A stretch of DNA of 36,445 nt, taken from the NCBI GenBank assembly GCA_016180855.1, contig JACPAL010000021.1, positions 1 through 36,445 of the forward strand. The letters run 5' to 3'. Positions 15,129 to 28,011 of this stretch are shown here, in pieces. Numbering within the stretch: position 1 is the first letter of the stretch; every line of letters begins with the position of its first letter. The notes under the pieces were generated by a model. It did not search any database, was not told the origin of the DNA, and worked only from the letters and a program-made list of their open reading frames with translations. Source of the DNA: Deltaproteobacteria bacterium. GTDB taxonomy: Bacteria > UBA10199 > JACPAL01. The translations under genes and the position numbers were made by a program.

Positions 15129-15130
15129 CT

Positions 15131-15149
15131 GATATTGAAAATCAATTTC
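15131..15149 (+). promoter_or_regulatory. Putative Fur box before fur
   Basis: GATATTGAAAATCAATTTC matches 15 of 19 positions of the classical Fur box GATAATGATAATCATTATC, counted by eye. It also contains the near-palindrome TGAAAATCAATTTCA. It lies between the TlpA-like gene and the fur start codon, 3 bp before ATG 15153. This suggests Fur represses its own gene and the following ZIP gene, or forms a roadblock inside the ribosomal operon. No separate -35/-10 pair was identified. Confidence 0.55.
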
Positions 15150-15152
15150 ATT

Positions 15153-15596
15153 ATGGAAACCCGTGGCAAAAAAATGGAGATCTATCGGCACTACTTGCGA
15201 ACAAAACATCTCAAAACCACGAAGCAGCGGGACCGGATTGTGGAGGAGTTTCTTCGAGTTCATCAGCATCTGACCGTTGAGGAGCTTCTATTCCGTGTTC
15301 GTCGTCAGGATGCGAGTATCGGTCCTGCGACGGTTTATCGGGCGCTCAAACTTTTAATAGAGTGTGGTCTTGCTAGCAAAAGGGAATTTGGGGGAGGGAA
15401 GGCTCGGTATGAGCAGGGGACGGATCGTCACCATGATCATCTGATCTGTGTTGGATGTGGCAAGATTGTTGAGTTCGAAAATGAAGAGATAGAGAAGCTC
15501 CAGATTAAAGTCTGCAAAAAAAATAAATTTCATCTTGCTCATCACAAGATGGAACTCTACGGCACCTGTTGCCAGTGTCAACGAAAGGGGGCCTAA
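15153..15596 (+). CDS. fur: Fur-family metal-responsive repressor
   Basis: A 147-residue Fur-family regulator. It has an N-terminal winged helix (LKTTKQRDRIVEEFLRVHQHLTVEELLFRVR, then GPATVYRALKLLIECGL), the HHDHLIC metal block near 93-99, and two CxxC pairs (C99-C102 and C139-C142) for structural zinc. The subtype (Fur, Zur or PerR) cannot be settled by eye, but the HHDH-CxxC-GKIVEFEN pattern fits true Fur best. Start options are TTG 15135, ATG 15153 and ATG 15174; the TTG would put the Fur box inside the gene, so 15153 is chosen. It is followed after 1 bp by the ZIP-cupredoxin gene. Confidence 0.9.
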   Translation: METRGKKMEIYRHYLRTKHLKTTKQRDRIVEEFLRVHQHLTVEELLFRVRRQDASIGPATVYRALKLLIECGLASKREFGGGKARYEQGTDRHHDHLICVGCGKIVEFENEEIEKLQIKVCKKNKFHLAHHKMELYGTCCQCQRKGA

Positions 15597-15597
15597 A

Positions 15598-16689
15598 ATG
15601 CACGAGGTAAGTCAAGGGGTGGTGCTTCTTGCGGGTGCGATCGCCGGCTTCACTATTTACCTGGGGTTGCCGGTTGCCCTCTTGAGAGTCTCTCTCCGAT
15701 GGCGCCTTTTTCTAAGTGCCGGTTCAGTGGGGGTGCTCCTCTTTCTTTTTGTAGAAATCAGCTATCAAGTGATGGAGCAGATTGAGTCGATTCTAAAGCT
15801 TGCCGTTATGGGCTACCGGACTTATTTTGAATTTTACCGGCACGTTGGAATATTCATTTTTGGTTTTGCCTTTGCGCTTGTCTCCCTTCTTCTTTTTGAG
15901 ATAAAATTTATACGAAAACCGAAAGGAGAGGAAAGGTCGTCGGCCCGGCGAATGGCCCTGATGATTGCTTTTGGGATTGGGCTTCATAACTTTAGTGAGG
16001 GTTTGGTGATTGGGCAGCAATTCTCGGGTGGGGCCTTGGCCTTGGGTTATCTGCTTGTTGTGGGGTTTGCCCTGCATAATGCGACGGAGGGATTTGGTAT
16101 TGCAGCACCCCTTGTTGACAATCGCCCCTCCTTCCTATTTCTTTTCATGTTGGGCTTGATCGGAGGGGGCCCGACGTTTCTTGGGACGTTTGTGGGGACG
16201 CAATGGACCTCCGAAATAGCCGAGTCCCTTTTCTTGTCTCTTGCGGCTGGTGCCATTCTTTATGTTGTTGGTGAATTGATACACTTGGGACGGGTTCGTG
16301 GGGGGTATATCACGGCGAGCCTTGGCTTACTCTTTGGTTTTTTCGTTGCCTTTGGATCGGACCTTGTCATTGAAAAGGCGACGACCTCCTCTTTTTTATC
16401 AAGGGCCGAGTCAAAGGAGATTCAGATGTACGCGGGGGATTTTTTTTTCAAACCGAGTGAGATCCATCTGGAGGCAGGCAAGTCTTATAAGCTGGTTGTT
16501 TCTAACCAAGGTGAAGTGGATCACGAAGTCGAATTTCTGGGATTAGGAGAAGAGATCGAACAGGTTGTTCCTTGGAAAGGTCAGACGGCGGTTCTTTTGG
16601 CTCCCCGGCATGGTGGCCGGTACCCCTTTATTTGTGATATGCCAGGGCATCTTTCAAAAGGGATGCAAGGCTCTCTCGTTGTCCACTGA
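15598..16689 (+). CDS. ZIP-type metal transporter fused to a cupredoxin domain
   Basis: A 363-residue protein with two parts. Residues 1-258 are a polytopic ZIP-like permease: about eight hydrophobic segments and the two metal-site motifs HNFSEG (130-135) and HNATEG (160-165), equivalent to the helix 4 and 5 sites of ZIP carriers. Residues 275-363, after the last helix, are a cupredoxin domain. Candidate type 1 copper ligands are H309 (VDHEVEFLG), then C346, H351 and M356 in FICDMPGHLSKGMQGSLVV. The topology should place it in the periplasm, but this is not proven. ZIP proteins carry Fe(II), Zn or Mn; the cupredoxin recalls the EfeO/FTR1 permease-plus-oxidase pairing. Directly downstream of fur, so iron is the likeliest substrate. 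The start is ATG 15598, 1 bp after fur. Confidence 0.85.
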   Translation: MHEVSQGVVLLAGAIAGFTIYLGLPVALLRVSLRWRLFLSAGSVGVLLFLFVEISYQVMEQIESILKLAVMGYRTYFEFYRHVGIFIFGFAFALVSLLLFEIKFIRKPKGEERSSARRMALMIAFGIGLHNFSEGLVIGQQFSGGALALGYLLVVGFALHNATEGFGIAAPLVDNRPSFLFLFMLGLIGGGPTFLGTFVGTQWTSEIAESLFLSLAAGAILYVVGELIHLGRVRGGYITASLGLLFGFFVAFGSDLVIEKATTSSFLSRAESKEIQMYAGDFFFKPSEIHLEAGKSYKLVVSNQGEVDHEVEFLGLGEEIEQVVPWKGQTAVLLAPRHGGRYPFICDMPGHLSKGMQGSLVVH

Positions 16690-16933: not shown

Positions 16934-17266
16934 GTGCTAAGGACAGAGTTGAAGGAATTATTTCAATTCTTTTCGCGGCGATGGCGCCTACGGCCCCTCT
17001 CAGAGGGAGGGCGTGAAAATTTGCAAGCAAAAAAGATCGTTTTACCCCCCGAGGAGTCTATTGCCGCAGAATCTTTTGAAATGGATCAGCGGACCGACCA
17101 CTCCATTCTTGTCGGCCGATTTATCATCAGGGGACAGGTCATGCTCGTTTCTCATTCCCAATGGGAGGGGGACTCTCATCCATTGACCGTTACTCAACGG
17201 AGAGAAATTTTGAGAAGAACGATTCAGGAACGATTGAGAAAGCTTCGAGAGTACCGAAAAAACTGA
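16934..17266 (+). CDS. Hypothetical protein before exbB
   Basis: An open frame of 110 residues not assigned to any family. It is basic at both ends (FFSRRWRLRP early; TQRREILRRTIQERLRKLREYRKN at the end) with a more ordered middle (ILVGRFIIRGQVMLVSHSQWEGDSHPL). No signal peptide or membrane helix is seen, and no metal motif. GTG 16934 and an in-frame TTG at 16949 (with AAGGACAG before it) are both possible starts. It ends 9 bp before exbB, so it is likely cotranscribed with exbBD; a link to energised transport is inference from position only. Confidence 0.6.
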   Translation: MLRTELKELFQFFSRRWRLRPLSEGGRENLQAKKIVLPPEESIAAESFEMDQRTDHSILVGRFIIRGQVMLVSHSQWEGDSHPLTVTQRREILRRTIQERLRKLREYRKN

Positions 17267-17275
17267 TTCAAGGCT

Positions 17276-17893
17276 ATGTGGGCAAAAATTTATTATTATT
17301 TTGATGTGGGTGGTTGGTGCATGTGGGGGATCGCTCTCTGTTCCGTGCTCGCTTTGGCGGTTTTTCTTGAAAGGCTCTTCGCTTTGCATAAGGAGATTGT
17401 TCTTCCAAGGAGTCTGGCGATTGAGGTGCAGGATCTTGTTCGTCGTGGGCTGATTGCTGAGGCGGTCACTTTGTGCCGAAAGAAGGAATCTCCTCTGGGT
17501 CGGGTGATTCAGGTTGGATTGGAGAATGCCGGAAAACTTCGCGAAAGAATCAAGGAACTCGTTAATGAGGTGGGTCAGAGAGAGGCAAGCCGTCTTGGTC
17601 GCTACATGGCTATTTTAAATACGACCATCAGTGTTGCACCGATGTTGGGTTTTTTAGGCACCGTGATAGGCATGGTTGACCTTTTTACTTCCGTTGCAGC
17701 GGTGGGGGAGGTGACGAACATCGGAATGATTGCCGATGGTATTTATAAAGCACTTTATACAACGGTGTTTGGTCTGGTCGTCGCAATTCCAGCGACTCTT
17801 TTTTACCGCTTTCTGTCAGCGCGTGTTGAGTCGCTTGTTTTAGAGATGGAAGAGGTCTCATTCAAGATTGTTGACCTGATTAAGAATGAATAA
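17276..17893 (+). CDS. exbB: ExbB/TolQ/MotA-family proton channel protein
   Basis: A 205-residue inner-membrane protein. Three hydrophobic helices are visible: residues about 14-32, 115-140 (TTISVAPMLGFLGTVIGMVDLF) and 155-178 (YKALYTTVFGLVVAIPATLFY). The conserved core APMLGFLGTVIGMVDLF and the TTVFGLVVAIPA block are the ExbB/TolQ signature. With ExbD it uses the proton gradient to drive a TonB- or TolA-type partner. No tonB is adjacent; a TonB-like protein lies 16 kb away at 34455. Confidence 0.9.
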   Translation: MWAKIYYYFDVGGWCMWGIALCSVLALAVFLERLFALHKEIVLPRSLAIEVQDLVRRGLIAEAVTLCRKKESPLGRVIQVGLENAGKLRERIKELVNEVGQREASRLGRYMAILNTTISVAPMLGFLGTVIGMVDLFTSVAAVGEVTNIGMIADGIYKALYTTVFGLVVAIPATLFYRFLSARVESLVLEMEEVSFKIVDLIKNE

Positions 17894-17908: not shown

Positions 17909-18313
17909 TTGGCCTTTCTGAAGAAACGAGTCGAGGAGGAGGTCGGTTTCAACGTAACCCCTCTGGTCGATGTGATGTTCAACCTCCTTATTTTTATTAT
18001 TATCACGGCCCAGTATTCCAATATTCAATCGCTTAAAGTGAATCTGCCCAAGGCCCAATCGGGGACGACCATGGAAAAGGAGGAGGAGACCATTGTAGTG
18101 ACCCTGACCAAGGAGGGGCAAGTCCACCTCAACGACGAAAAGATCCCGTTGGACGATTTAAAGCCAAGACTTGTTTCTCTCTCTGCCAGAGAGAATCCGC
18201 CCCGAGTTATCCTTCAGGCGGATCGTGATTCTACAACAGGGGGTCTGGTCAAGGTGATGGATTTGGCTTCTCAGGCAGGTCTTAAGAAGATCTCGATTGA
18301 AACCAAGAAATAG
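17909..18313 (+). CDS. exbD: ExbD/TolR-family biopolymer transport protein
   Basis: A 134-residue protein with a single N-terminal membrane helix. The helix starts with NVTPLVDVMFNLLIFIIITA, which holds the essential Asp of ExbD (about residue 22). A periplasmic domain follows with VTLTKEGQVHLNDEKIPLDDL and VILQADRDSTTGGLVKVMDLASQAG, typical of ExbD/TolR. The start is TTG 17909 after an AGAGAGGA site at 17893-17900. It is 15 bp behind exbB and faces the subtilase gene, whose stop is only 7 bp away. Confidence 0.9.
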   Translation: MAFLKKRVEEEVGFNVTPLVDVMFNLLIFIIITAQYSNIQSLKVNLPKAQSGTTMEKEEETIVVTLTKEGQVHLNDEKIPLDDLKPRLVSLSARENPPRVILQADRDSTTGGLVKVMDLASQAGLKKISIETKK

Positions 18314-18320
18314 TTTTCCC

Positions 18321-21300
18321 TTAATTTCTTCTGAAGACAAGATCATCAAACCAGAAGGTCCCACGACCGCTACGATCGATCCCAAATTTAATTTGTGCCG
18401 TTGCGGCCCCCGCCGGGGCGGGGAGGAGCGATGAGAATTGTTGCCATTCGGACCTTACTTTCCCAAGTTTTGCATTCTCAGCCCTGATCAATCTTCCCGA
18501 ACTATTAAACCACGCAAGGGTCACGAAAGGACGTGGGGTATTGAGGATACTCAAACCACCAACGGCCTTGATCCAGCCAGAGGCATAGTATTGATGACCC
18601 GCTGTCACTGGGATAGAGCTTAAACTGCTTACGGTAGTTTGTCTTCCTCCTCGAGGAGATGGTGTCAAACGGGCCGCCTTTGCGCCAGAGTGAAATGTTG
18701 TCGTGTCAATCGTTGCCCCAGTCGAAAACTGCCAATCTGTTTGATCCTCTTCGAACCCGGGGTTTGTCAAGAGATTCGGATACTGGGCCCTCACAGTAAC
18801 CGGTTCAGAATAGGGCGATTCATTTCCCGCCAGGTCAATAGCGGAGACCTCATAGGTCAGGTCGATTCCGATCGGCTGGTTCGTATCGATAAACTGCGTC
18901 TCTGTCGCTGTCGCAACAAGGGATCCATAGCGGTAAATCCGATAACCTTCGACACTTATATTATCGGTTGCGGGTTGCCAGCGGAGGGTCACACTCGCCG
19001 TGTCATCAGGCTCCAGAGAGACAGAGGCCTCGAGCCCCGTGGGGGTTGTCGGAGGTTCGCCAGGGGTCCAAAAGGTATGCTCTGAGACAGACTCTTCATC
19101 AGGGTGGCCAAAAAGATGAATTCTTAAATGATAAAAGGTTTCCGGGCTTAGGTATGAAACGTGGGAGGTGGAAACTCGCCTCAGAGGATTTATAGGTTCG
19201 TCTTCAAATTGACCGAGAGGATCTCCCGTGGGACCCTCCCACTCTGATCGTTGTGGTCCCCAATGATCAATAGGGGGTGGATCTATATGAAAAACGCTCC
19301 TTTCGATTGTCTGAGGAGTTGAGAAGTCAAGGTGAGCCACGTAATATGGGGGGTGACCGGGAGGGGGGGTATAAAGCTGAAACCTGGGATTAAAGCGTGT
19401 TACTTCAAGAGGGTAATTATTATAGTAAACAAAGATATCCTGCGAGGTCGTATTGCCATATTGATCATACGCCACTGCTCGTATGCGCCGCGGTCCACCA
19501 TCCCTTGCGGCTGTCGAATCCCATTCATAACTCCATTCCGTTGTCCCGGTGGCATCTAGAAAAGACCAGGCCATGGGATCCCTATCGAATGACAACGCGA
19601 CGCGTGCCACTTCGCCATTATCTGATGCCGTTCCTCGGACGGTGATCGGTCCGGACAAAACGTTGTCAGGCCCGCCTTCAGGAGACTCTATCTGAATGGT
19701 CGGAGGAACGATGGGTCCTTTAAAGACACCAACCCTCTCGTAGAAGGTCGTCCCATCTTGATTATCGATACTGAGTCGGATGATATAGGACTGTTCCGTC
19801 GTAAGGGGAGTCATATCAAATGTGCCGAGAACCCCATTCGTTACAGGCGTTGTGCTCTCACTGATCGGGATCCATGTGATCCTAACGTTGGGATAATCTA
19901 GAGAATATCCCTCACCATACTCAAGTCGATACCGTGAAAAATTGCGGCTCGTTGCGGTTCCGCGGATTTCAATAGTCCCTTCGACTGCCTCACCGTTTCT
20001 TGGGGCCGCGATGAGACTCTCTCCGAATGTCGTTGTCGTGAGAGCCGGTACAGCGCGGATCAAACCATATCCCAAATTGGGGCAGAACTCGTTTGAACAA
20101 AACGGAGAGTCCGAGGATGATTTCAGGATCTGTCGAATCTCTTGTACGGTTAATGTTGGATTTTGCGAGATGAGAAGTGCTGCGAGTCCCACCACATGTG
20201 GTGTCGCCATACTTGTTCCATCCCAAGCGACGGTTCCACCGCCAAGAATCGTGGAGAGGATACTCACACCGGGGGCGACAACATCAAGCTTATGTCCCTG
20301 ATTGGAAAAATAGGCCCGGGTGTTATTGGGTTGGGTAGCACCAACTACGATGACGCCTGGGGTATTTGCGGGATAGAAGTATCGGATATCCGCGCCATAG
20401 TCATTTCCGGCCGCCGTAACGACGACAACACCGAGGTTTAGGGCATAGTTTACGGCATCTTCGATACCCTGCGAGAAGAAGGGGCCTCCAAGACTTAAAT
20501 TGATGATATCGGCACCGATGTCGGCGGCATAGGTGATACCGGCAGCGACCGCATCGAAGGGGCATCCTCGCCGACGATCCGGGAAGCAGACCTTGACCGG
20601 GGCTACTTTTGAGTTATAGGCGACACCGATCACGTCGAGACTGTTATTCCCGATACCGGCGATCGTCCCCGACACATGCGTTCCATGTCCACCGTCATCG
20701 ATCGGATTATTATCCCTGTTGACAAAGTCCCATCCCCTCGAATCATCAATAAAACCGTTTTCATCGTCATCAACGTTATTCCCAACGATTTCAGAGCTGC
20801 TTGCCCAAATGTTGGTTGCCAGATCGGCATGATTGTAATCGACACCGGTATCGACAACGGCCACCGTGATACCATCGCCCGTTTCAATATCCCATGCCTC
20901 CTCCATGCCTATTCGACTCAGTCCCCACAGGGAATTTTCGGGAAGATTCTCACCCTCTGGATCCCATGCGGGGTCGTTTGGAATCATAGTGAGATCCAAT
21001 GCCTGAATTCGTTCCGCATATTCAACGTCAGCCTCTTGTTTTAATTGATTCAGTTTTTCATTGATCCTCTCTTCAGCAACCTTTGGGTTTGTCATCGGGA
21101 GGTTCCCAAGATCAAGTTCCAGAATATAGGATTGCGTGAGTTCAGGAGTCGGAAAGTTGCGTTGGACTCGATTCGAACGACGCTGGAATCTTCCTTTGAG
21201 TTCATTGGTCAGAAGCATCTCTGATTTACCCGTCTTCTTCTTTTTATACACTTTGCCCGGATGTAGCGGTCGGATCTCTTTAAGTCGATATTTCTCAAAG

Positions 21301-21536
21301 AGGGTTCGAAGCTTTCTGTCACCACCGTGATTCATGAGTTTGAGGGTGTTCAACGGCAATTTGCCTTCAATCTTGTTTGCTGTTTCCTGGCGGTATTTGA
21401 CAAGTATTCTCGGGATCGGAGCGACGGTCGTAAAACTTGGGGGGGGAGAGGAAGACCCGGCGTTAAGAGCCGTTGGATAAAAAAGAAAACAAATCCCGAT
21501 TATCCAAAAAGCGGCAAAGATTTTTTGAAGAGACAT
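18321..21536 (-). CDS. Secreted subtilisin-like serine protease, multidomain
   Basis: A 1071-residue S8-family protease with signal peptide (hydrophobic residues 5-25, ending ALNA). A propeptide-like region (about 40-180) precedes the catalytic domain. The triad is clear: D229 in AVVDTGVDYNHADL, H284 in GGHGTHVSGTIAG, S442 in GTSMATPHVVG, with oxyanion N378 in AAGND. After residue 510 come beta-rich modules: Ig-like repeats, an Fn3-like module (PTTPTGLEASVSL, then DNISVEGYRIYR) and a C-terminal jelly-roll domain beginning NLLTNPGFEEDQTDWQF. It is probably a secreted or surface enzyme for extracellular protein. ATG 21536 is preferred to an upstream TTG at 21578 because it gives the intact signal peptide. 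Confidence 0.9.
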   Translation of the reverse strand: MSLQKIFAAFWIIGICFLFYPTALNAGSSSPPPSFTTVAPIPRILVKYRQETANKIEGKLPLNTLKLMNHGGDRKLRTLFEKYRLKEIRPLHPGKVYKKKKTGKSEMLLTNELKGRFQRRSNRVQRNFPTPELTQSYILELDLGNLPMTNPKVAEERINEKLNQLKQEADVEYAERIQALDLTMIPNDPAWDPEGENLPENSLWGLSRIGMEEAWDIETGDGITVAVVDTGVDYNHADLATNIWASSSEIVGNNVDDDENGFIDDSRGWDFVNRDNNPIDDGGHGTHVSGTIAGIGNNSLDVIGVAYNSKVAPVKVCFPDRRRGCPFDAVAAGITYAADIGADIINLSLGGPFFSQGIEDAVNYALNLGVVVVTAAGNDYGADIRYFYPANTPGVIVVGATQPNNTRAYFSNQGHKLDVVAPGVSILSTILGGGTVAWDGTSMATPHVVGLAALLISQNPTLTVQEIRQILKSSSDSPFCSNEFCPNLGYGLIRAVPALTTTTFGESLIAAPRNGEAVEGTIEIRGTATSRNFSRYRLEYGEGYSLDYPNVRITWIPISESTTPVTNGVLGTFDMTPLTTEQSYIIRLSIDNQDGTTFYERVGVFKGPIVPPTIQIESPEGGPDNVLSGPITVRGTASDNGEVARVALSFDRDPMAWSFLDATGTTEWSYEWDSTAARDGGPRRIRAVAYDQYGNTTSQDIFVYYNNYPLEVTRFNPRFQLYTPPPGHPPYYVAHLDFSTPQTIERSVFHIDPPPIDHWGPQRSEWEGPTGDPLGQFEDEPINPLRRVSTSHVSYLSPETFYHLRIHLFGHPDEESVSEHTFWTPGEPPTTPTGLEASVSLEPDDTASVTLRWQPATDNISVEGYRIYRYGSLVATATETQFIDTNQPIGIDLTYEVSAIDLAGNESPYSEPVTVRAQYPNLLTNPGFEEDQTDWQFSTGATIDTTTFHSGAKAARLTPSPRGGRQTTVSSLSSIPVTAGHQYYASGWIKAVGGLSILNTPRPFVTLAWFNSSGRLIRAENAKLGKVRSEWQQFSSLLPAPAGAATAQIKFGIDRSGRGTFWFDDLVFRRN

Positions 21537-21652
21537 CTGAATATATATAAAGGACAGGCAATTTCGATGCCAAGGCAACAGGACCGGTTATTTTTTAACT
21601 ACTTGAAATAAGAGGCATTTCTTTTTTACTCACTGACAGGGGTACGATATCA

Positions 21653-21807: not shown

Positions 21808-21827
21808 TGAGAATGATTATCAATATC
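21808..21827 (+). promoter_or_regulatory. Strong Fur box controlling the porin-ApbE operon
   Basis: TGAGAATGATTATCA (21808-21822) matches the 7-1-7 Fur motif TGATAATnATTATCA at 13 of 14 defined positions. As the 19-mer at 21809-21827 it matches 16 of 19. It is placed between a TTGACA promoter box and the ribosome site of the porin gene, the normal place of a repressor operator. This makes the following five genes likely iron-repressed. Confidence 0.8.
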
Positions 21828-21847
21828 TTAAAAGGAGGTTCATCGCT

Positions 21848-23005
21848 ATGAAAAACGTGGTTTTTGCCAAGACGGCCCTGTTGGTGTTGGGACTGCTGTT
21901 GGGAGGTTCCTCTCTCTCTTATTCGACCCCAAAAATTAAAATACCCTTGGGAGAAGAGGAGGGAGCTGAACAAAAGGCCCCTTTTTATTTCTTTGGTTAC
22001 GGAGAACTTCACTACAACAATCGAGTGGGGGATGGTGGTGATCAGTTCGACTTTCACCGCATGGTTTTGGGGTTTGGATATGACTTTACCGACAAATGGA
22101 ACTTTCGGACGGAGCTCGATTTTGAACACGCGTTTACCGAGCCTGAATTGGAATTTGCTCATGTTGATTATCTAAGGAGCCCTCATCTCAATCTTCGGTT
22201 TGGAAGCCTTTTGGTCCCGATGGGGGTGATCAATCAGCATCATGAACCGCCTCTCTTCTACAGTGTTGAGAGGCCGGAGGTTTATCGCGTTATTATTCCC
22301 ACGACCTGGCAAGAGGGAGGGGCTGGGATCTACGGAGAGATCACTGACGGACTTCACTATCAGTTGTACGGAACCTCCAGCCTGAACGCCTCCGGATTCA
22401 ATGGGAGCAATGGCGTTCGCGGTGGACGGGGACATGTGGGAGAGCAGATCGGACGTGACTTTGCAGGCTCTGGTCGTTTGGAATACGTCGGGCTTCCCGG
22501 TTTTCGTTTAGGGACATCTCTCTTCGCTGGTAATACGGGGCAAGGGGACGCCACGATCGACGGAGGTCTTCTTCTCATAGGTGAGGGGGATGCCAAATAC
22601 AGTCTTGAGGGTTTTGATCTGGAAGGGCTCTTTGTCTGGAGCCATCTATCAGATGCCGGTAATATCAACACCACCCTAGTAGTGGCCACGCCGACCTTTA
22701 CCAATTTTGTCGCATCCCAAATGATGGGGTGGTATCTCGAGGGGGCTTATCATCTTTTCTATCATCTAAAACCGGAAATCAGACAGGATCTCGTTCTCTT
22801 TAGCCGTTTCGAAGATTTTAATACCCAGTATCGGATGCCGACCGGATTTGCTTCCAGTGCAGCGAATGATCGTAATACCGTTACGACGGGTCTCGCCTAC
22901 CTTCCGATTCCCCAGGTAGTCTTTAAGGCTGATTATATGCTCAATTGGAGTCAGGCGAATGGTGGAACGGATCAGTTTAATCTTGGAGTTGGATTCATGT
23001 ATTAA
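21848..23005 (+). CDS. Outer-membrane porin, Fur-regulated
   Basis: A 385-residue beta-barrel porin. It has a signal peptide (residues 1-26; LLVLGLLLGGSSLSYS), a short mature start, then alternating amphipathic strands such as FGYGELHYNN, FDFHRMVLGFGYDF, WNFRTELDFEHAF and NLRFGSLLVPMG. The protein ends VGFMY; a terminal aromatic residue is usual for outer-membrane insertion. It resembles the OprO/OprP-like porin group found beside Fur boxes. The solute is not known. ATG 21848 has an AAAGGAGG ribosome site; an upstream in-frame TTG at 21758 would include the promoter and is rejected. Confidence 0.8.
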   Translation: MKNVVFAKTALLVLGLLLGGSSLSYSTPKIKIPLGEEEGAEQKAPFYFFGYGELHYNNRVGDGGDQFDFHRMVLGFGYDFTDKWNFRTELDFEHAFTEPELEFAHVDYLRSPHLNLRFGSLLVPMGVINQHHEPPLFYSVERPEVYRVIIPTTWQEGGAGIYGEITDGLHYQLYGTSSLNASGFNGSNGVRGGRGHVGEQIGRDFAGSGRLEYVGLPGFRLGTSLFAGNTGQGDATIDGGLLLIGEGDAKYSLEGFDLEGLFVWSHLSDAGNINTTLVVATPTFTNFVASQMMGWYLEGAYHLFYHLKPEIRQDLVLFSRFEDFNTQYRMPTGFASSAANDRNTVTTGLAYLPIPQVVFKADYMLNWSQANGGTDQFNLGVGFMY

Positions 23006-23020
23006 ATGGGAGGAAAAACG

Positions 23021-23224
23021 ATGGATACAAACCATGAAAAACATCACCGCCGGTGGAGCCTTCAACTCTGCGGTTCCAATGCGATTCATATTGTCTACGG
23101 ACCGGTGACCCTGCATATTCCCCGACAAGACCTGCCGCATTTGATGTTGGGTCTTGTCAGAATGAGCCGAGAAATGATTGCAAAGGGATTGAGGGGAGAA
23201 GAGAGTGAAGCAGTTCTTCACTAG
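23021..23224 (+). CDS. Small hypothetical protein between porin and FMN-binding gene
   Basis: A 67-residue protein with no membrane helix or signal peptide and no family assigned. It is rich in His at the start (TNHEKHHRRW) and contains WSLQLCGSNAIHIVYGPVTLHIPRQDLPHLMLGL, which reads as a few beta-strands and a helix. The start ATG 23021 is supported by GGGAGGA at 23008-23014. It sits 15 bp after the porin and its end overlaps the next gene by 20 bp, so it is a true member of the operon. It has one Cys and seven His residues; metal or heme binding is only a guess. Confidence 0.7.
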   Translation: MDTNHEKHHRRWSLQLCGSNAIHIVYGPVTLHIPRQDLPHLMLGLVRMSREMIAKGLRGEESEAVLH

Positions 23225-23762
23225 AGCTGTTTATCTATTACTTGTTGGTTTAGTGACGACGTCTCTTTTTGCCGAGCCGACTGTTTATTTAAGGCCCGAA
23301 GAGGCGCTTCAGATCATTTTCAGGGATTCCGAGGAAGTTGTTTCGGATTCCACAATACTAACCGCCCCGCAAAAGCTTGAGTTGAAAAAGAAACTGGGTG
23401 AACCACTTCGCAAAGAGACCTGGAACTTTTTTATTGCCAGAAGTGGGGGAAAGATTGATGGCTATGCCCTTGTCGACCAGGAGGTCGGAAAAACAGAGCC
23501 GATTACCTTTTTGACGGCGCTTACACCGGATGGCAAGGTAAAAGAGGTCGAAGTTCTTGCCTACAGGGAACCAATCGGGAGTGAGGTAAGACACAAGAAT
23601 TTTCTGAAACAGTACCGTGAGAAACGTCCGGAGAGCCCCTTGATCGTGGGGAGGGATATCCAGGGAATTACAGGAGCGACACTTTCAGCACGGGCTGTCT
23701 CCAGAGGGGTCCGGAGGGCCCTTGCTTTATGGGAGATCCTTTATGGAAAGGAGAAGAGATGA
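23205..23762 (+). CDS. FMN-binding domain protein (flavinylation substrate)
   Basis: A 185-residue secreted protein with signal peptide (1-23, ending LFAEP). The C-terminal half is an FMN-binding domain of the NqrC/RnfG type: VEVLAYREPIGSEVRHKNFLKQY, then the acceptor block DIQGITGATLSARAV. The Thr of ITGAT (T159) is the expected site of covalent FMN attachment by ApbE, whose gene is two genes downstream. The protein is probably a periplasmic flavin electron carrier; Fe(III) or another acceptor is inference from the Fur box. The start is GTG 23205, inside the end of the preceding gene. Confidence 0.87.
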   Translation: MKQFFTRAVYLLLVGLVTTSLFAEPTVYLRPEEALQIIFRDSEEVVSDSTILTAPQKLELKKKLGEPLRKETWNFFIARSGGKIDGYALVDQEVGKTEPITFLTALTPDGKVKEVEVLAYREPIGSEVRHKNFLKQYREKRPESPLIVGRDIQGITGATLSARAVSRGVRRALALWEILYGKEKR

Positions 23763-24256
23763 TGAGACTCTCTGTGCTTCCGCTCTCGGCCAAAACACTC
23801 ATTACCTGTTTGCTCTTTGCATTGTCCGTTGGGTATTTTGTCTCCCTCCTTCAGATAGGCAATCGTACCGATTTTAATCAGCAAAAGACTGTCAGGCATT
23901 TTCGGGGTGTTGATGGTGATTCCGAACTCTATCCTCCGCAGAGCACGGCCACACTGATTTCCGTGGCCCATGTCCATAGTTTTAGTCAACCCGTGGTTAT
24001 CGCCCTTGTCTCATTACTCTTCCTCTTTACCGGAATTTCGGAGGGAAAGAAGGTCTTTTGGATTCTCGTTGCTTTTATCGGCAGTCTTGCAGGTATTTGT
24101 ACTCCCTGGTTGATTCGTGATGTTTCCCCATATTCTGTCTTCGGGCTTTATCTTTCAGGGATCGCCCTTTTGGGATCCTTTTGCGTCATGGCGACTCGTG
24201 TTCTTTATGAGACCTGGAGATCTCCCTCCCTTCCCCCCAATAATGCGAAGAGCTAA
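23759..24256 (+). CDS. Four-helix membrane protein with HxH motif
   Basis: A 165-residue inner-membrane protein with about four hydrophobic segments: residues 12-28, 76-95, 102-120 and 128-150. The loop before the second segment carries HVHSF (VAHVHSFSQPVVIAL), an HxH pair that could bind a heme or metal. Between helix 1 and the HxH is a polar, probably periplasmic stretch. No known family could be named with certainty. It overlaps the FMN-binding gene by 4 bp and apbE by 14 bp, so it is probably the membrane partner that feeds electrons to the flavinylated protein. Double ATG at 23759; the first is taken. Confidence 0.72.
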   Translation: MMRLSVLPLSAKTLITCLLFALSVGYFVSLLQIGNRTDFNQQKTVRHFRGVDGDSELYPPQSTATLISVAHVHSFSQPVVIALVSLLFLFTGISEGKKVFWILVAFIGSLAGICTPWLIRDVSPYSVFGLYLSGIALLGSFCVMATRVLYETWRSPSLPPNNAKS

Positions 24257-25118
24257 TCTTATATTAATTTTTTTTTGTTCATTAGCGTCAGCCGCCGAAT
24301 TTTCGAGAACACAAATTTTAATGGGAGATGTTCCTGTTGTTATTACCGTTCGGGCCCCTTCCGGCAGAAAAGAAAAGGCGTTTCATGTGATGGATGATGC
24401 CTTTCAACTGGCCCGTGAAATTGAAAATGAGGTGAGCGAATTTGTCCCTTCGAGTGACACGTTTCATTTAAACAGCGTGAAGATAAAAGAAGAGGTGTTT
24501 ATTCGACCTCACCTGTTGAAAATTCTGTTGTTGGCGGAACAAGTTTCGCTTCGAACCGAAGGGGCCTTTGATGTCACTTTTGCTTCCAGAAATCGTGCGG
24601 CCTCTTTTCGCGATTTGCAGATCAATCAAGATCGTTCGACCGTTTTAATTGATCGGCGTGGCATAAAAATTGGCGTCTCGGGAATAGCAAAGGGCTACAT
24701 TGTAGATCGAATGAGTGAGTTTCTGAATGAGAATGGATTTTCTAGCCACCTTGTTAATGCAGGGGGGGATTTAATGGCCCATGGTGTTTGGAGAATTGGC
24801 ATTAGGGACCCTTTGAGCGATCGTATCCTCTGTTCATTGGATCTCCAGGACCAGGCGGCCTCTACCTCCGGTCTTTATGAAAGGGGGAGACATCTCTTTG
24901 ACCCCCGATTAAAGGGGCCTATCGAAAACCCTGATTTTTTGAGTGTTACCGTTATTGGCGACACCTGTTTTGATACCGATCCGTTGTCTACTGCAGGATT
25001 CATGGTTGGGAGAAGGGGAGTGGAGAGGCTGATTTCAAGGTTTTTCGGGGTCTCGCTTATTGTTGTAGATCAAAAAGGCAGGGTGGACAGCTACCCTACC
25101 ATCGGTCTTTGCCGATAA
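24243..25118 (+). CDS. apbE: FAD:protein FMN transferase ApbE
   Basis: A 291-residue ApbE-family protein with an N-terminal signal sequence (about 1-18). It shows GIAKGYIVDRMSEFL at 147-161, NAGGD at 172-176, HLFDPRLKGPI near 218-226 and the Mg-binding-like segment DTDPLSTAGFMVG near 244-256. ApbE moves FMN from FAD to a Ser/Thr in a periplasmic substrate; the likely substrate is the FMN-binding protein upstream. The start ATG 24243 lies inside the upstream gene without a clear ribosome site, pointing to coupled translation. A longer frame from 24117 exists but lacks family similarity there. Confidence 0.9.
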   Translation: MRRANLILIFFCSLASAAEFSRTQILMGDVPVVITVRAPSGRKEKAFHVMDDAFQLAREIENEVSEFVPSSDTFHLNSVKIKEEVFIRPHLLKILLLAEQVSLRTEGAFDVTFASRNRAASFRDLQINQDRSTVLIDRRGIKIGVSGIAKGYIVDRMSEFLNENGFSSHLVNAGGDLMAHGVWRIGIRDPLSDRILCSLDLQDQAASTSGLYERGRHLFDPRLKGPIENPDFLSVTVIGDTCFDTDPLSTAGFMVGRRGVERLISRFFGVSLIVVDQKGRVDSYPTIGLCR

Positions 25119-25348: not shown

Positions 25349-26515
25349 ATGTATGATCGAAGGCTTATAATTCGACTCCCTCGGGGACAGTCCGCGTTTC
25401 TTTGGGGGGCCCGCCAGACCGGCAAATCAACTTATTTAGAGTCTCATTTTCCCAAGTCGCTGAAATATGATTTTCTCCAGTCGGACCTTTATCTTAACTT
25501 CATGAAGGAACCGCATCGTTTACGAGAAGAATTATTAGAGAAAAAAATCTCACCGTCCGAGCAACCGATCATTCTTGACGAGGTCCAAAAAATTCCCCTA
25601 CTTCTTGACGAGGTTCATTGGCTGATTGAGAATAAAAAATTAAGTTTCATCCTCTGCGGTTCCAGTGCGCGAAAACTGAAAAGGGAGAAGGCCAATCTTT
25701 TGGGCGGCCGTGCCTGGCGCTTTGACATGCACCCCCTCGTGTTCCCCGAAATTCCCGATTTCAATCTCCTGAAAGCCCTTCAGCAAGGGCTCTTACCATC
25801 CCATTATCAGACCGAGTATCCGGAAAAGGCTCTGAGGGCTTATGTCAATGATTACTTGACCGAAGAAATCAGGGCGGAAGGTTTGAGCCGAAATCTGGCC
25901 GCCTTCGCGAAATTTCTGGAGGCCGCCGCCTTTTCACACGGTCAACTCGTGCACTACAAGAACATCGCCAGCGACTGTGGTGTCGATGCCAAAACGGTAA
26001 AAGAATATTTTGAAATATTAAAAGATACTTACATCGCCTCCTTCCTCCAACCCCTTCAGAAGAAAAATGGAAGAAAGAGCCTCTCGGCGACTCCCAAATT
26101 CTATTTTTTCGACCCTGGCGTCGTCAACTTTCTGTCCAAAACATCCTTGAACCAGCTGAAAGGGCCCCAGGCCGGTTTAAGTTTCGAGGGGTATCTCTTC
26201 CATGAGATCAATACCTACCGTTCCTACACCGAAAAGGATTTTGACCTTCATTATTGGCGCACCGGTAGTGGCCATGAAGTGGATTTTGTTCTCAATAAAG
26301 ATGAGGTCACTATCGAGGCCAAGATTTCTGATCGTATCAAACCGGACGATATCAAGGGATTAAGAGTGTTCCTTGACGAATCACCCGTTAAAAAGGCTTA
26401 TGTCGTCTGCTTGGAAAAAAGACAACGGCTGATTACAACCCCGGAAGGAAAAGAGGTCCATATAGTTCCCTGGAAAAACTTTCTGGAGGTCCTTTGGAAT
26501 GGTGACATCATCTAA
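25349..26515 (+). CDS. AAA+ ATPase with DUF4143 domain (first copy)
   Basis: A 388-residue ATPase. The N-terminal AAA domain has Walker A GARQTGKST (20-28) and Walker B IILDEVQ (74-80), with the sensor-like LCGSSARKL segment after it. The C-terminal DUF4143 part resembles a restriction-endonuclease-like fold: E in FEGYLFHEI, YWRTGSGHEVDFVLN and IEAKIS give an E-D-ExK pattern. Many bacteria have multiple copies; their role is not established, though links to mobile-element or stress functions have been proposed. It starts after its own promoter and ends just before a histidine-kinase fragment. AAGGAG at 25331-25336 is the ribosome site. Confidence 0.85.
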   Translation: MYDRRLIIRLPRGQSAFLWGARQTGKSTYLESHFPKSLKYDFLQSDLYLNFMKEPHRLREELLEKKISPSEQPIILDEVQKIPLLLDEVHWLIENKKLSFILCGSSARKLKREKANLLGGRAWRFDMHPLVFPEIPDFNLLKALQQGLLPSHYQTEYPEKALRAYVNDYLTEEIRAEGLSRNLAAFAKFLEAAAFSHGQLVHYKNIASDCGVDAKTVKEYFEILKDTYIASFLQPLQKKNGRKSLSATPKFYFFDPGVVNFLSKTSLNQLKGPQAGLSFEGYLFHEINTYRSYTEKDFDLHYWRTGSGHEVDFVLNKDEVTIEAKISDRIKPDDIKGLRVFLDESPVKKAYVVCLEKRQRLITTPEGKEVHIVPWKNFLEVLWNGDII

Positions 26516-26717
26516 CAGATCAATAACTTTTCGAGAATCTCATTCGAGGGGATTAAGGGCTCGGGCATAGCCCGGACTTACAAGGGGACCGGCTTGGGGC
26601 TCGCCATCTGCAAGGAGATCATCGAACAGCACGGAGGGGGGGATAGGGGTTACGAGCGACGGCGAAAAGGGGGTCGAGTTTTATTTCACACTGCCGATTG
26701 GCTCCACGGTTTTGTGA
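26516..26717 (+). pseudogene. Remnant of a sensor histidine kinase (ATP-binding end)
   Basis: Right after the ATPase stop, and in the same frame, the sequence encodes KGTGLGLAICKEIIEQHGGG, the G2 box of a histidine kinase ATPase domain. Then the frame breaks at a run of seven G (26636-26642). Dropping one G restores IGVTSDGEKGVEFYFTLPI, the normal C terminus, up to a TGA at 26715-26717. The N box, dimerisation domain and sensor part are absent. A sequencing error in the G run could explain the shift but not the missing front. Its end overlaps the 3' end of the next gene on the opposite strand. Confidence 0.75.
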
Positions 26718-28011
26718 GCAGCGAAACGGCATAGAGTGGGAAGTTGCAGGTCTGGGAGTCTCGTTTGAGATTCAAAAGGTTCAGTCGAAGGAGTGAATCG
26801 GGAGAAAATTGATCCGCGTAGGAGCTGAGGCTCCGGCTTCGCGGGCGGATCCCTGATTTGACTTCGAGAGGATAGATCCGATCTTCGAGCTCAATCAAAA
26901 AATCAATTTCCGCCTTTCCTCCCTCACTCCTCCAGTAATAAAGTTCCTCCATTCCCAAAAAGGCAATGAGCTGTTGGGCCACATAGTTTTCCGCCAAGGC
27001 CCCTTTGTATTCTTCAAAGAGTCGGTAACGTTCGACGAGGACCGTGGTCGGAGTTCGGGCCATCGCCCCCAAAAGCCCGACATCGAGCATGTAGACCTTA
27101 AAACAGTTTTGGTCGGCATAATGCTTGAGGGGAAATTGACTTTTCTGGACCGCACTTGCCCGGTGAATCAGCCCCGCATCCTTAAGCCAGACTAGCGCAT
27201 TCTCATACTCCCTGGCTCGAGCTCCTTTCTTGAGCGCTGAAAAGATAAATTTTCGATGCTCTCGAGCCAAATGGGACAGGAGGGAATCCCAAATCAGGGT
27301 GAGCTTTGGAATATCCGAAGCCGGCGCGTGTTTGGCGAAATCCAGGATATACGAATCGATCACCTCGCGTTGAATTTGACGGACCTCGAAGGGATCCCGT
27401 TTCTCAGCGTAACATTTCACCGCCTCGGGCATTCCCCCCACGAAATAATACTGATGGAGGAGGTCAATGAGTTCCTGGTGAAAAGGTTCGGCATAAGGAA
27501 CAAGTTTTTCGGTCTCTTCTAAAACCATTCGGTAGCGCGATTCCCCGACGGCTTCAAGAAACTCAAGAAAAGTCAGTGGACGGAGATCGAGAAAATTCAC
27601 CTTCCCGACGGGAAAAGATCTCGGTGTGGAGAGTTTCACACCGAGCAGGGAACCGGCACAAGCGAGGTGATATTCCGGAGCCTGCTCCTGGAAATATTTG
27701 AGCGAATTGAGTGCGGCGTTCGACGTCTGGATCTCGTCAAAAATAACGAGATCCTGCTCGGGGCGGATTTTGCTCTTCGAATAAATTTCAAGATCATTAA
27801 GGATTCTTCGGGGATCCAGGTTTTTTTCAAAGAATTGGCCGAGTCTTGGAACCTCCTCGAAATTAAAATAGTGGACTTGACCATACTCTTTTTTCCCAAA
27901 TTCCATGAGAAGGTAGGTTTTTCCAGTTTGCCTGGCTCCTTTAAGGAGTAGCGGTTTTCGCCGCTCCGAGATCTTCCATGCGACGAGCCTTTGATAGGCA
28001 TCCCGTTTCAT
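26686..28011 (-). CDS. AAA+ ATPase with DUF4143 domain (second copy)
   Basis: A 441-residue ATPase of a different subgroup from the one at 25349. Walker A GARQTGKTY lies at 25-33 and Walker B LVIFDEIQ at 88-95. A winged-helix-like middle is followed by a C-terminal DUF4143 nuclease-like domain with YYWRSEGGKAEIDFLIELEDRIYPLEVKSG; the E-D-ExK residues are intact. The final SQSAV residues read antisense across the kinase remnant, so the native C terminus may have been replaced there. The start ATG at 28011 follows a TTGACA box. Function is uncertain, as for the first copy. Confidence 0.85.
   Translation of the reverse strand: MKRDAYQRLVAWKISERRKPLLLKGARQTGKTYLLMEFGKKEYGQVHYFNFEEVPRLGQFFEKNLDPRRILNDLEIYSKSKIRPEQDLVIFDEIQTSNAALNSLKYFQEQAPEYHLACAGSLLGVKLSTPRSFPVGKVNFLDLRPLTFLEFLEAVGESRYRMVLEETEKLVPYAEPFHQELIDLLHQYYFVGGMPEAVKCYAEKRDPFEVRQIQREVIDSYILDFAKHAPASDIPKLTLIWDSLLSHLAREHRKFIFSALKKGARAREYENALVWLKDAGLIHRASAVQKSQFPLKHYADQNCFKVYMLDVGLLGAMARTPTTVLVERYRLFEEYKGALAENYVAQQLIAFLGMEELYYWRSEGGKAEIDFLIELEDRIYPLEVKSGIRPRSRSLSSYADQFSPDSLLRLNLLNLKRDSQTCNFPLYAVSLLTKPWSQSAV

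Follow-up and report, generated by a model that had tools for sequence, protein, structure and literature searches.

We analysed a 36,445-nucleotide stretch of contig JACPAL010000021.1 from a genome titled Deltaproteobacteria bacterium (hereafter the window), in which a metal permease of the ZIP family and a cupredoxin domain are encoded as a single protein. The fusion gene lies downstream of a Fur-box-like site and fur, and upstream of a small open reading frame (ORF) and genes for ExbB- and ExbD-type proteins:

15130–15150 (+), Fur-box-like site: two overlapping matches with three mismatches each, offset by six bases, shortly before the probable start of fur
15135–15596 (+), fur: FUR family match of 123 bits, listed start TTG at 15135
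15598–16689 (+), ZIP–cupredoxin fusion gene: 363 amino acids, translation without internal stop
16934–17266 (+), small ORF with no Pfam match: also present in the sister genus (L143:9481-9798), between the fusion and exbB
17276–17893 (+), ExbB/TolQ-type proton channel: order conserved in the sister genus (G001)
17909–18313 (+), ExbD/TolR-type protein: order conserved in G001

The real start of fur is probably the ATG at 15153 or 15174, and its stop codon lies one base before the ATG of the fusion gene. No other Fur-family gene occurs in the genome, which is 96% complete. A longer ORF for the fusion, starting from a TTG at 15535, merely overlaps the end of fur and was rejected; the coordinates that start at 15598 are right.

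As the preliminary description had proposed, one frame of 363 residues contains both domains, each of which scores above its Pfam cut-off. Zip (PF02535) matches residues 111–224 (42.8 bits against a cut-off of 35.1) and Cupredoxin_1 (PF13473) matches residues 269–362 (50.3 bits against 27), with Copper-bind also scoring just above its cut-off. The motif and ligand positions given earlier are all correct: HNFSEG occupies residues 130–135 and HNATEG residues 160–165, and the type 1 copper ligands are H309, C346, H351 and M356 (two histidines, one cysteine and one methionine), C346 being the sole cysteine in the whole protein. The ZIP metal site is made up of H130, N131 and E134, of H160, N161 and E164, and of E226. 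The permease part has eight predicted transmembrane helices with the transport-site residues conserved on helices 4 and 5, as in the ZIP family. The fusion is not a simple ZupT duplicate, because the same genome encodes a separate 255-residue ZIP on another contig.

A full-length AlphaFold2 model built from a 37-sequence alignment (mean pLDDT 87, pTM 0.81) consists of eight long helices followed by a beta domain from residue 273 onwards; the transmembrane helices are predicted to span residues 6–269, with a short linker leading to the cupredoxin (269–362). In Foldseek, BbZIP was the match for the membrane part, and a Bacillus anthracis Cupredoxin_1 protein was that for the beta domain. The eight-helix ZIP fold is common to the fusion and BbZIP, a prokaryotic ZIP of the GufA/ZupT type (PF02535; PDB 5tsa/8czj), and H177, E181 and E211 of BbZIP, as given in PMC9873690, correspond to H130, E134 and E164 of the fusion. 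BbZIP differs in having no C-terminal domain and in carrying Q207 and D208 where the fusion, with its helix motifs HNFSEG and HNATEG, has H160 and N161.

Because residues 355–363 were of low confidence in the full-length model, the cupredoxin was also modelled alone (pLDDT 87.9). Its best match was copper-bound 4hcf (E = 1.1e-10), followed by FtrB, auracyanin and CuA domains. A profile built from the sequences of nine fusions likewise had 4hcf as its top match, and the alignment paired all four ligands (H, C, H and M). This B. anthracis Cupredoxin_1 is therefore the best match in both fold and sequence, but it is a stand-alone domain with no transporter fused to it. Profile, fold and ligands together argue for a type 1 copper cupredoxin, which is predicted to be redox active. 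ZIPs usually have both ends outside the cytoplasm. In the fusion, positive charges cluster in loops 1–2, 3–4 and 7–8, which together with the eight helices places both termini outside the cytoplasm; the copper domain is thus predicted to be periplasmic, about ten residues after the eighth transmembrane helix. We regard the family as ZIP permeases with their own blue-copper domain, and predict from sequence that they transport divalent metal.

The fusion is carried by ten genomes from three phylum-level groups, on which ground a chance or assembly artefact was rejected. Besides the source genome (G000), full-length copies are present in G001, G060, G061, G067, G068, G070, G071 and G073, and the copy in G062 is split across two contig ends. 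G001, from the sister genus, has the same protein in the same place at 68% identity. When 385 genomes were searched with a fusion profile, no fusion beyond those of G000 and G001 was found at E ≤ 1e-30, and the four other matches covered the ZIP part only. Beyond G000 and G001, a scan of one genome per species (84,980 species) recovered two full-length matches, in L016 (Deltaproteobacteria by its title, Myxococcota by NCBI name) and L017 (Nitrospinota), together with a third, L019, that is cut by a contig end; its missing half is on another contig of that genome, where Cupredoxin_1 was confirmed. The same scan returned many ZIP-only relatives, in Chloroflexota, Actinomycetota and archaea. The full fusion was found in 6 of 24 Nitrospinota genomes (plus one more partial match), in 2 of 46 genomes of the source organism's phylum and in 1 of 297 genomes of the phylum of L016. 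The numbers in this census are minima, since the scan of 84,980 genomes relied on two short peptides that some fusions lack.

H309, C346, H351 and M356 are invariant in nine aligned full-length fusions, which, with the PF13473 match, bears out the earlier claim of a complete type 1 copper set. H130, N131, E134, H160, N161 and E164 are invariant in the nine fusions and in all 77 unfused rows. Both domains were detected in every full-length relative scanned, although in L138 Zip scored under the curated threshold. We also built a quick tree from 43 ZIP parts, in which a single branch (SH-aLRT 93) separates the ten fused rows from the others. On these sequences, the fused copies are one group inside a larger, mostly unfused ZIP subfamily, a pattern that fits a single fusion event, although it falls short of proof.

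Two side observations concern individual sequences. Residue 53, in the second transmembrane helix, is Glu in all five fused rows checked and Asp in 73 of the 77 unfused relatives, possibly a fusion-linked change in the transport path. A partial fusion-like match at a contig end in a Nitrospinota genome (L142; G069:C221, 3094–3327) covers residues 187–268 only and may be a broken or frameshifted copy.

The preliminary description placed the fusion beside fur, and this holds for the source genome but not as a rule: among the ten genomes found to carry the fusion, fur is directly upstream in only four (G000, G001, G061 and G067). At all four fur-linked loci there are TGATAATNATTATCA-like sites upstream of fur, with 3, 3, 0 and 2 mismatches, respectively; the perfect Fur box is from Nitrospinota. 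Single-base shuffles of the same stretch (500 for each locus) matched equally well in fractions of 0.006, 0.008, 0 and 0.002 of cases. No Fur box within four mismatches was found in the scanned promoter regions upstream of the fur-less fusions. Across the whole window, six Fur-box matches with three or fewer mismatches were observed, against 1.2 expected. The tight operon and the predicted sites upstream of it support the control by Fur that had been suggested for the fur–fusion operon.

The best Fur-box match in the window lies further downstream, in front of a second group of genes; exbB and exbD sit between the two operons:

21808–21828 (+), second Fur box, TGAGAATGATTATCA: one mismatch, plus an overlapping site, upstream of the porin cluster
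21848–23005 (+), Porin_O_P-type outer membrane protein: same cluster in G001
23205–23762 (+), FMN_bind protein
23729–24256 (+), putative small membrane protein without a Pfam match: between FMN_bind and ApbE, counterpart in G001
24117–25118 (+), ApbE flavin transferase: real start probably near 24244

In G001, the porin/FMN_bind/ApbE cluster follows shortly after exbD, with its order kept and a Fur box with two mismatches. Published work connects flavinylated extracytosolic proteins with assimilatory iron reduction, and Fur represses some clusters of this type (PMC8238504). The cluster at 21808–25118 resembles a flavoprotein system of the periplasm under the control of Fur, and it may be a ferric reductase; its putative link to the fusion comes only from closeness and from Fur-box sequences that the two have in common. 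Two other features of this part of the window are a large secreted protein, subtilase-like by eye (18321–21578, minus strand), which lies between exbD and the porin cluster and is absent from that place in the sister genus, and two AAA_14/DUF4143 ATPase genes (25349–28011), which are on opposite strands, back to back.

The reading that we tentatively favour, at a little under an even chance, is that the protein is a Fur-controlled ZIP-family importer of the inner membrane for Fe(II), or possibly for other divalent metals, in which the type 1 copper domain at the periplasmic end would handle electrons; we infer both that iron is transported and that the copper domain acts in redox chemistry. 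Points in favour of an Fe(II) importer are the Fur boxes at all four fur-linked loci and their absence from the promoter regions scanned for the fur-less fusions, the conserved Fur box and gene order of the porin/FMN_bind/ApbE cluster in the sister genus, and the genome having no match to FTR1 (PF03239). The genome also encodes one TonB-dependent receptor plug domain, and FeoB, by which Fe(II) import is already provided; the latter counts against a further Fe(II) importer. A lone type 1 copper site, moreover, need not react with iron at all, which weakens the case for a redox role.

The contexts of the other fusions also bear on the metal. An ArsR-family gene precedes the fusion in G060 and G062 (2 of 10 fusions), and no metal regulator adjoins it in G068, G070, G071 and G073 (4 of 10), both of which speak against an Fe(II) importer. 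The metal context expected in relatives was thus present as fur in four fusions or as ArsR in two, and no adjacent metal regulator was seen in the other four. The iron uptake proposed in the preliminary description keeps the Fur boxes and the fur-linked loci in its favour, but it is what we infer from these rather than a property common to the ArsR-linked and regulator-less copies.

The ArsR-family regulator takes the place of Fur directly upstream of the fusion (L016, 3498–3860; L019, 3509–3865), and the regulator may have been exchanged between Fur and ArsR. The ArsR sequences contain ELCVCD and end in D-x-H...H-x-x-E, which we take to be a SmtB/CadC-like motif. The ArsR-linked fusion of G060 has a divergent heavy-metal P-type ATPase as a neighbour. 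No CPC or SPC motif was found in the P-type ATPase beside L016; the P-type ATPase of L020 has SPC and an HEGST end and is presumably P1B-4-like.

Several of the unfused ZIP relatives adjoin DtxR-type repressors, which sense iron or manganese, and this again counts for an Fe(II) importer. Among the 25 families listed for 116 neighbour proteins, DtxR repressors were the most frequent (7), two matches were to Cu-oxidase_2 and none was to a cupredoxin. A detached cupredoxin partner beside the unfused ZIPs was likewise rejected, none being found by a narrow local profile. Taking the ArsR, regulator-less and DtxR contexts together, the subfamily therefore points to transition metals generally, with iron favoured for the fur-linked copies.

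The main rival to the Fe(II) importer is copper (or zinc) acquisition, in which the cupredoxin would be a periplasmic metal trap or chaperone handing copper to the ZIP pore, and the link to Fur would reflect metal cross-talk or co-transcription. The four ligands make the domain a copper binder, both copper and zinc forms of its closest solved relative have been crystallised, and the SmtB/CadC-like C-terminal motif of the ArsR proteins that precede two fusions would suit this alternative. Buried type 1 sites, however, hold copper firmly and work in electron transfer, not in passing metal on, and the Fur boxes in all four fur-linked operons point to iron. In ammonia-oxidising archaea, ZIP permeases increase when copper is limiting and adjoin multicopper oxidases, and a role in copper uptake has been proposed for them (PMC7785015); archaeal members of the ZIP subfamily studied here were found. 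The archaeal pair NVIE_000590/NVIE_000600 resembles the fusion in pairing a ZIP permease with a copper redox protein, but there the two are separate genes, a multicopper oxidase takes the place of the single cupredoxin, and the response is to copper limitation (PMC7785015). On balance, we consider copper acquisition fairly unlikely.

The copper domain could instead be a membrane-tethered electron carrier for respiration or for periplasmic thiol or cytochrome chemistry, attached to an ordinary ZIP with which it shares no mechanism. Its fold also resembles the CuA and auracyanin electron carriers, a ResA/TlpA-type protein is encoded upstream of fur in the window, a CcmH gene lies downstream of the fusion in L017, and four fusions have no metal neighbour. 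However, the ZIP metal-site residues are fully kept in the fused copies and the Fur boxes tie expression to iron, so that we judge this alternative unlikely.

The preliminary description drew an analogy to FTR1/EfeU systems, which would make the protein a ferroxidase-permease of the FTR1/Fet3 kind in one chain, the copper domain oxidizing Fe(II) and the ZIP importing the product. The fusion of a copper protein to a permease, the Fur box and the iron context are all in keeping with this, and the fold neighbours of the domain include FtrB, which serves as the cupredoxin in an FTR1-type system. Multicopper oxidases, however, use oxygen by means of a trinuclear centre, and the single type 1 site of the fusion comes without one to pass electrons to oxygen. 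ZIPs transport divalent ions (PMC9873690), which would make it self-defeating to oxidize Fe(II) before the ZIP pore. In EfeUOB and FtrABCD, as in the fusion, an iron permease acts with a periplasmic protein of cupredoxin fold, but their permease is FTR1 rather than a ZIP and their cupredoxin is a protein of its own. The type 1 HHC ligands are not conserved in FtrB, and EfeO has been assigned to a different cupredoxin class (PMC11966278); the copper domain of the fusion is therefore not of their kind. We rejected an FTR1-type system as such, the permease being a ZIP and the genome having no PF03239 match; the analogy is weak, and a one-chain ferroxidase-permease is very improbable.

For the Fe(II) importer that we favour, the following sequence of events can be proposed. 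Iron shortage would cause Fur to release both the fur–fusion operon and the porin/FMN-protein/ApbE operon. Iron would enter the periplasm, where a periplasmic flavoprotein would keep it as Fe(II) or make it so, and the ZIP carrier would move Fe(II) inward. The copper domain, some ten residues from the last transmembrane helix, would pass electrons to or from iron itself, or a redox partner in the periplasm, at the mouth of the pore; the metal would thereby arrive in a transportable state. Reduction is favoured here over FTR1-style oxidation because ZIPs carry divalent ions. Plant IRT1 and the ferric reductase FRO2 couple a redox step to a ZIP Fe(II) importer by the same logic, but FRO2 is a separate flavocytochrome reductase with no copper domain. 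The stronger version, a self-contained redox-assisted ZIP iron importer in which the covalently attached type 1 domain of an elevator-type carrier determines the oxidation state that iron has at the mouth of the pore, with Fur controlling both this protein and a periplasmic flavoprotein that works alongside it, we regard as conceivable but somewhat unlikely.

The Zip and Cupredoxin_1 domains are both known, whereas their combination and its wiring to Fur appear undescribed. We found no description of a ZIP–cupredoxin fusion in 5.39 million open-access papers, and an earlier listing may exist in subscription papers or on domain-architecture pages; to that extent, the earlier suggestion of a new architecture stands. 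Bacteria and humans alike have ZIP carriers, which are seldom regarded as redox proteins. That a ZIP is naturally fused to a complete blue-copper domain, in an arrangement conserved across three phylum-level groups and partly wired to Fur, suggests that electron transfer can be coupled to ZIP transport, and it makes the redox state of a metal and its transport accessible to study through one gene. The findings suggest a one-protein device for redox-assisted uptake of a metal, probably iron. If this is true, it would be a further solution to iron import beside Feo and the FTR1 ferroxidase-permeases, and iron uptake would be linked to copper status in Nitrospinota and in little-known bacteria of groundwater.
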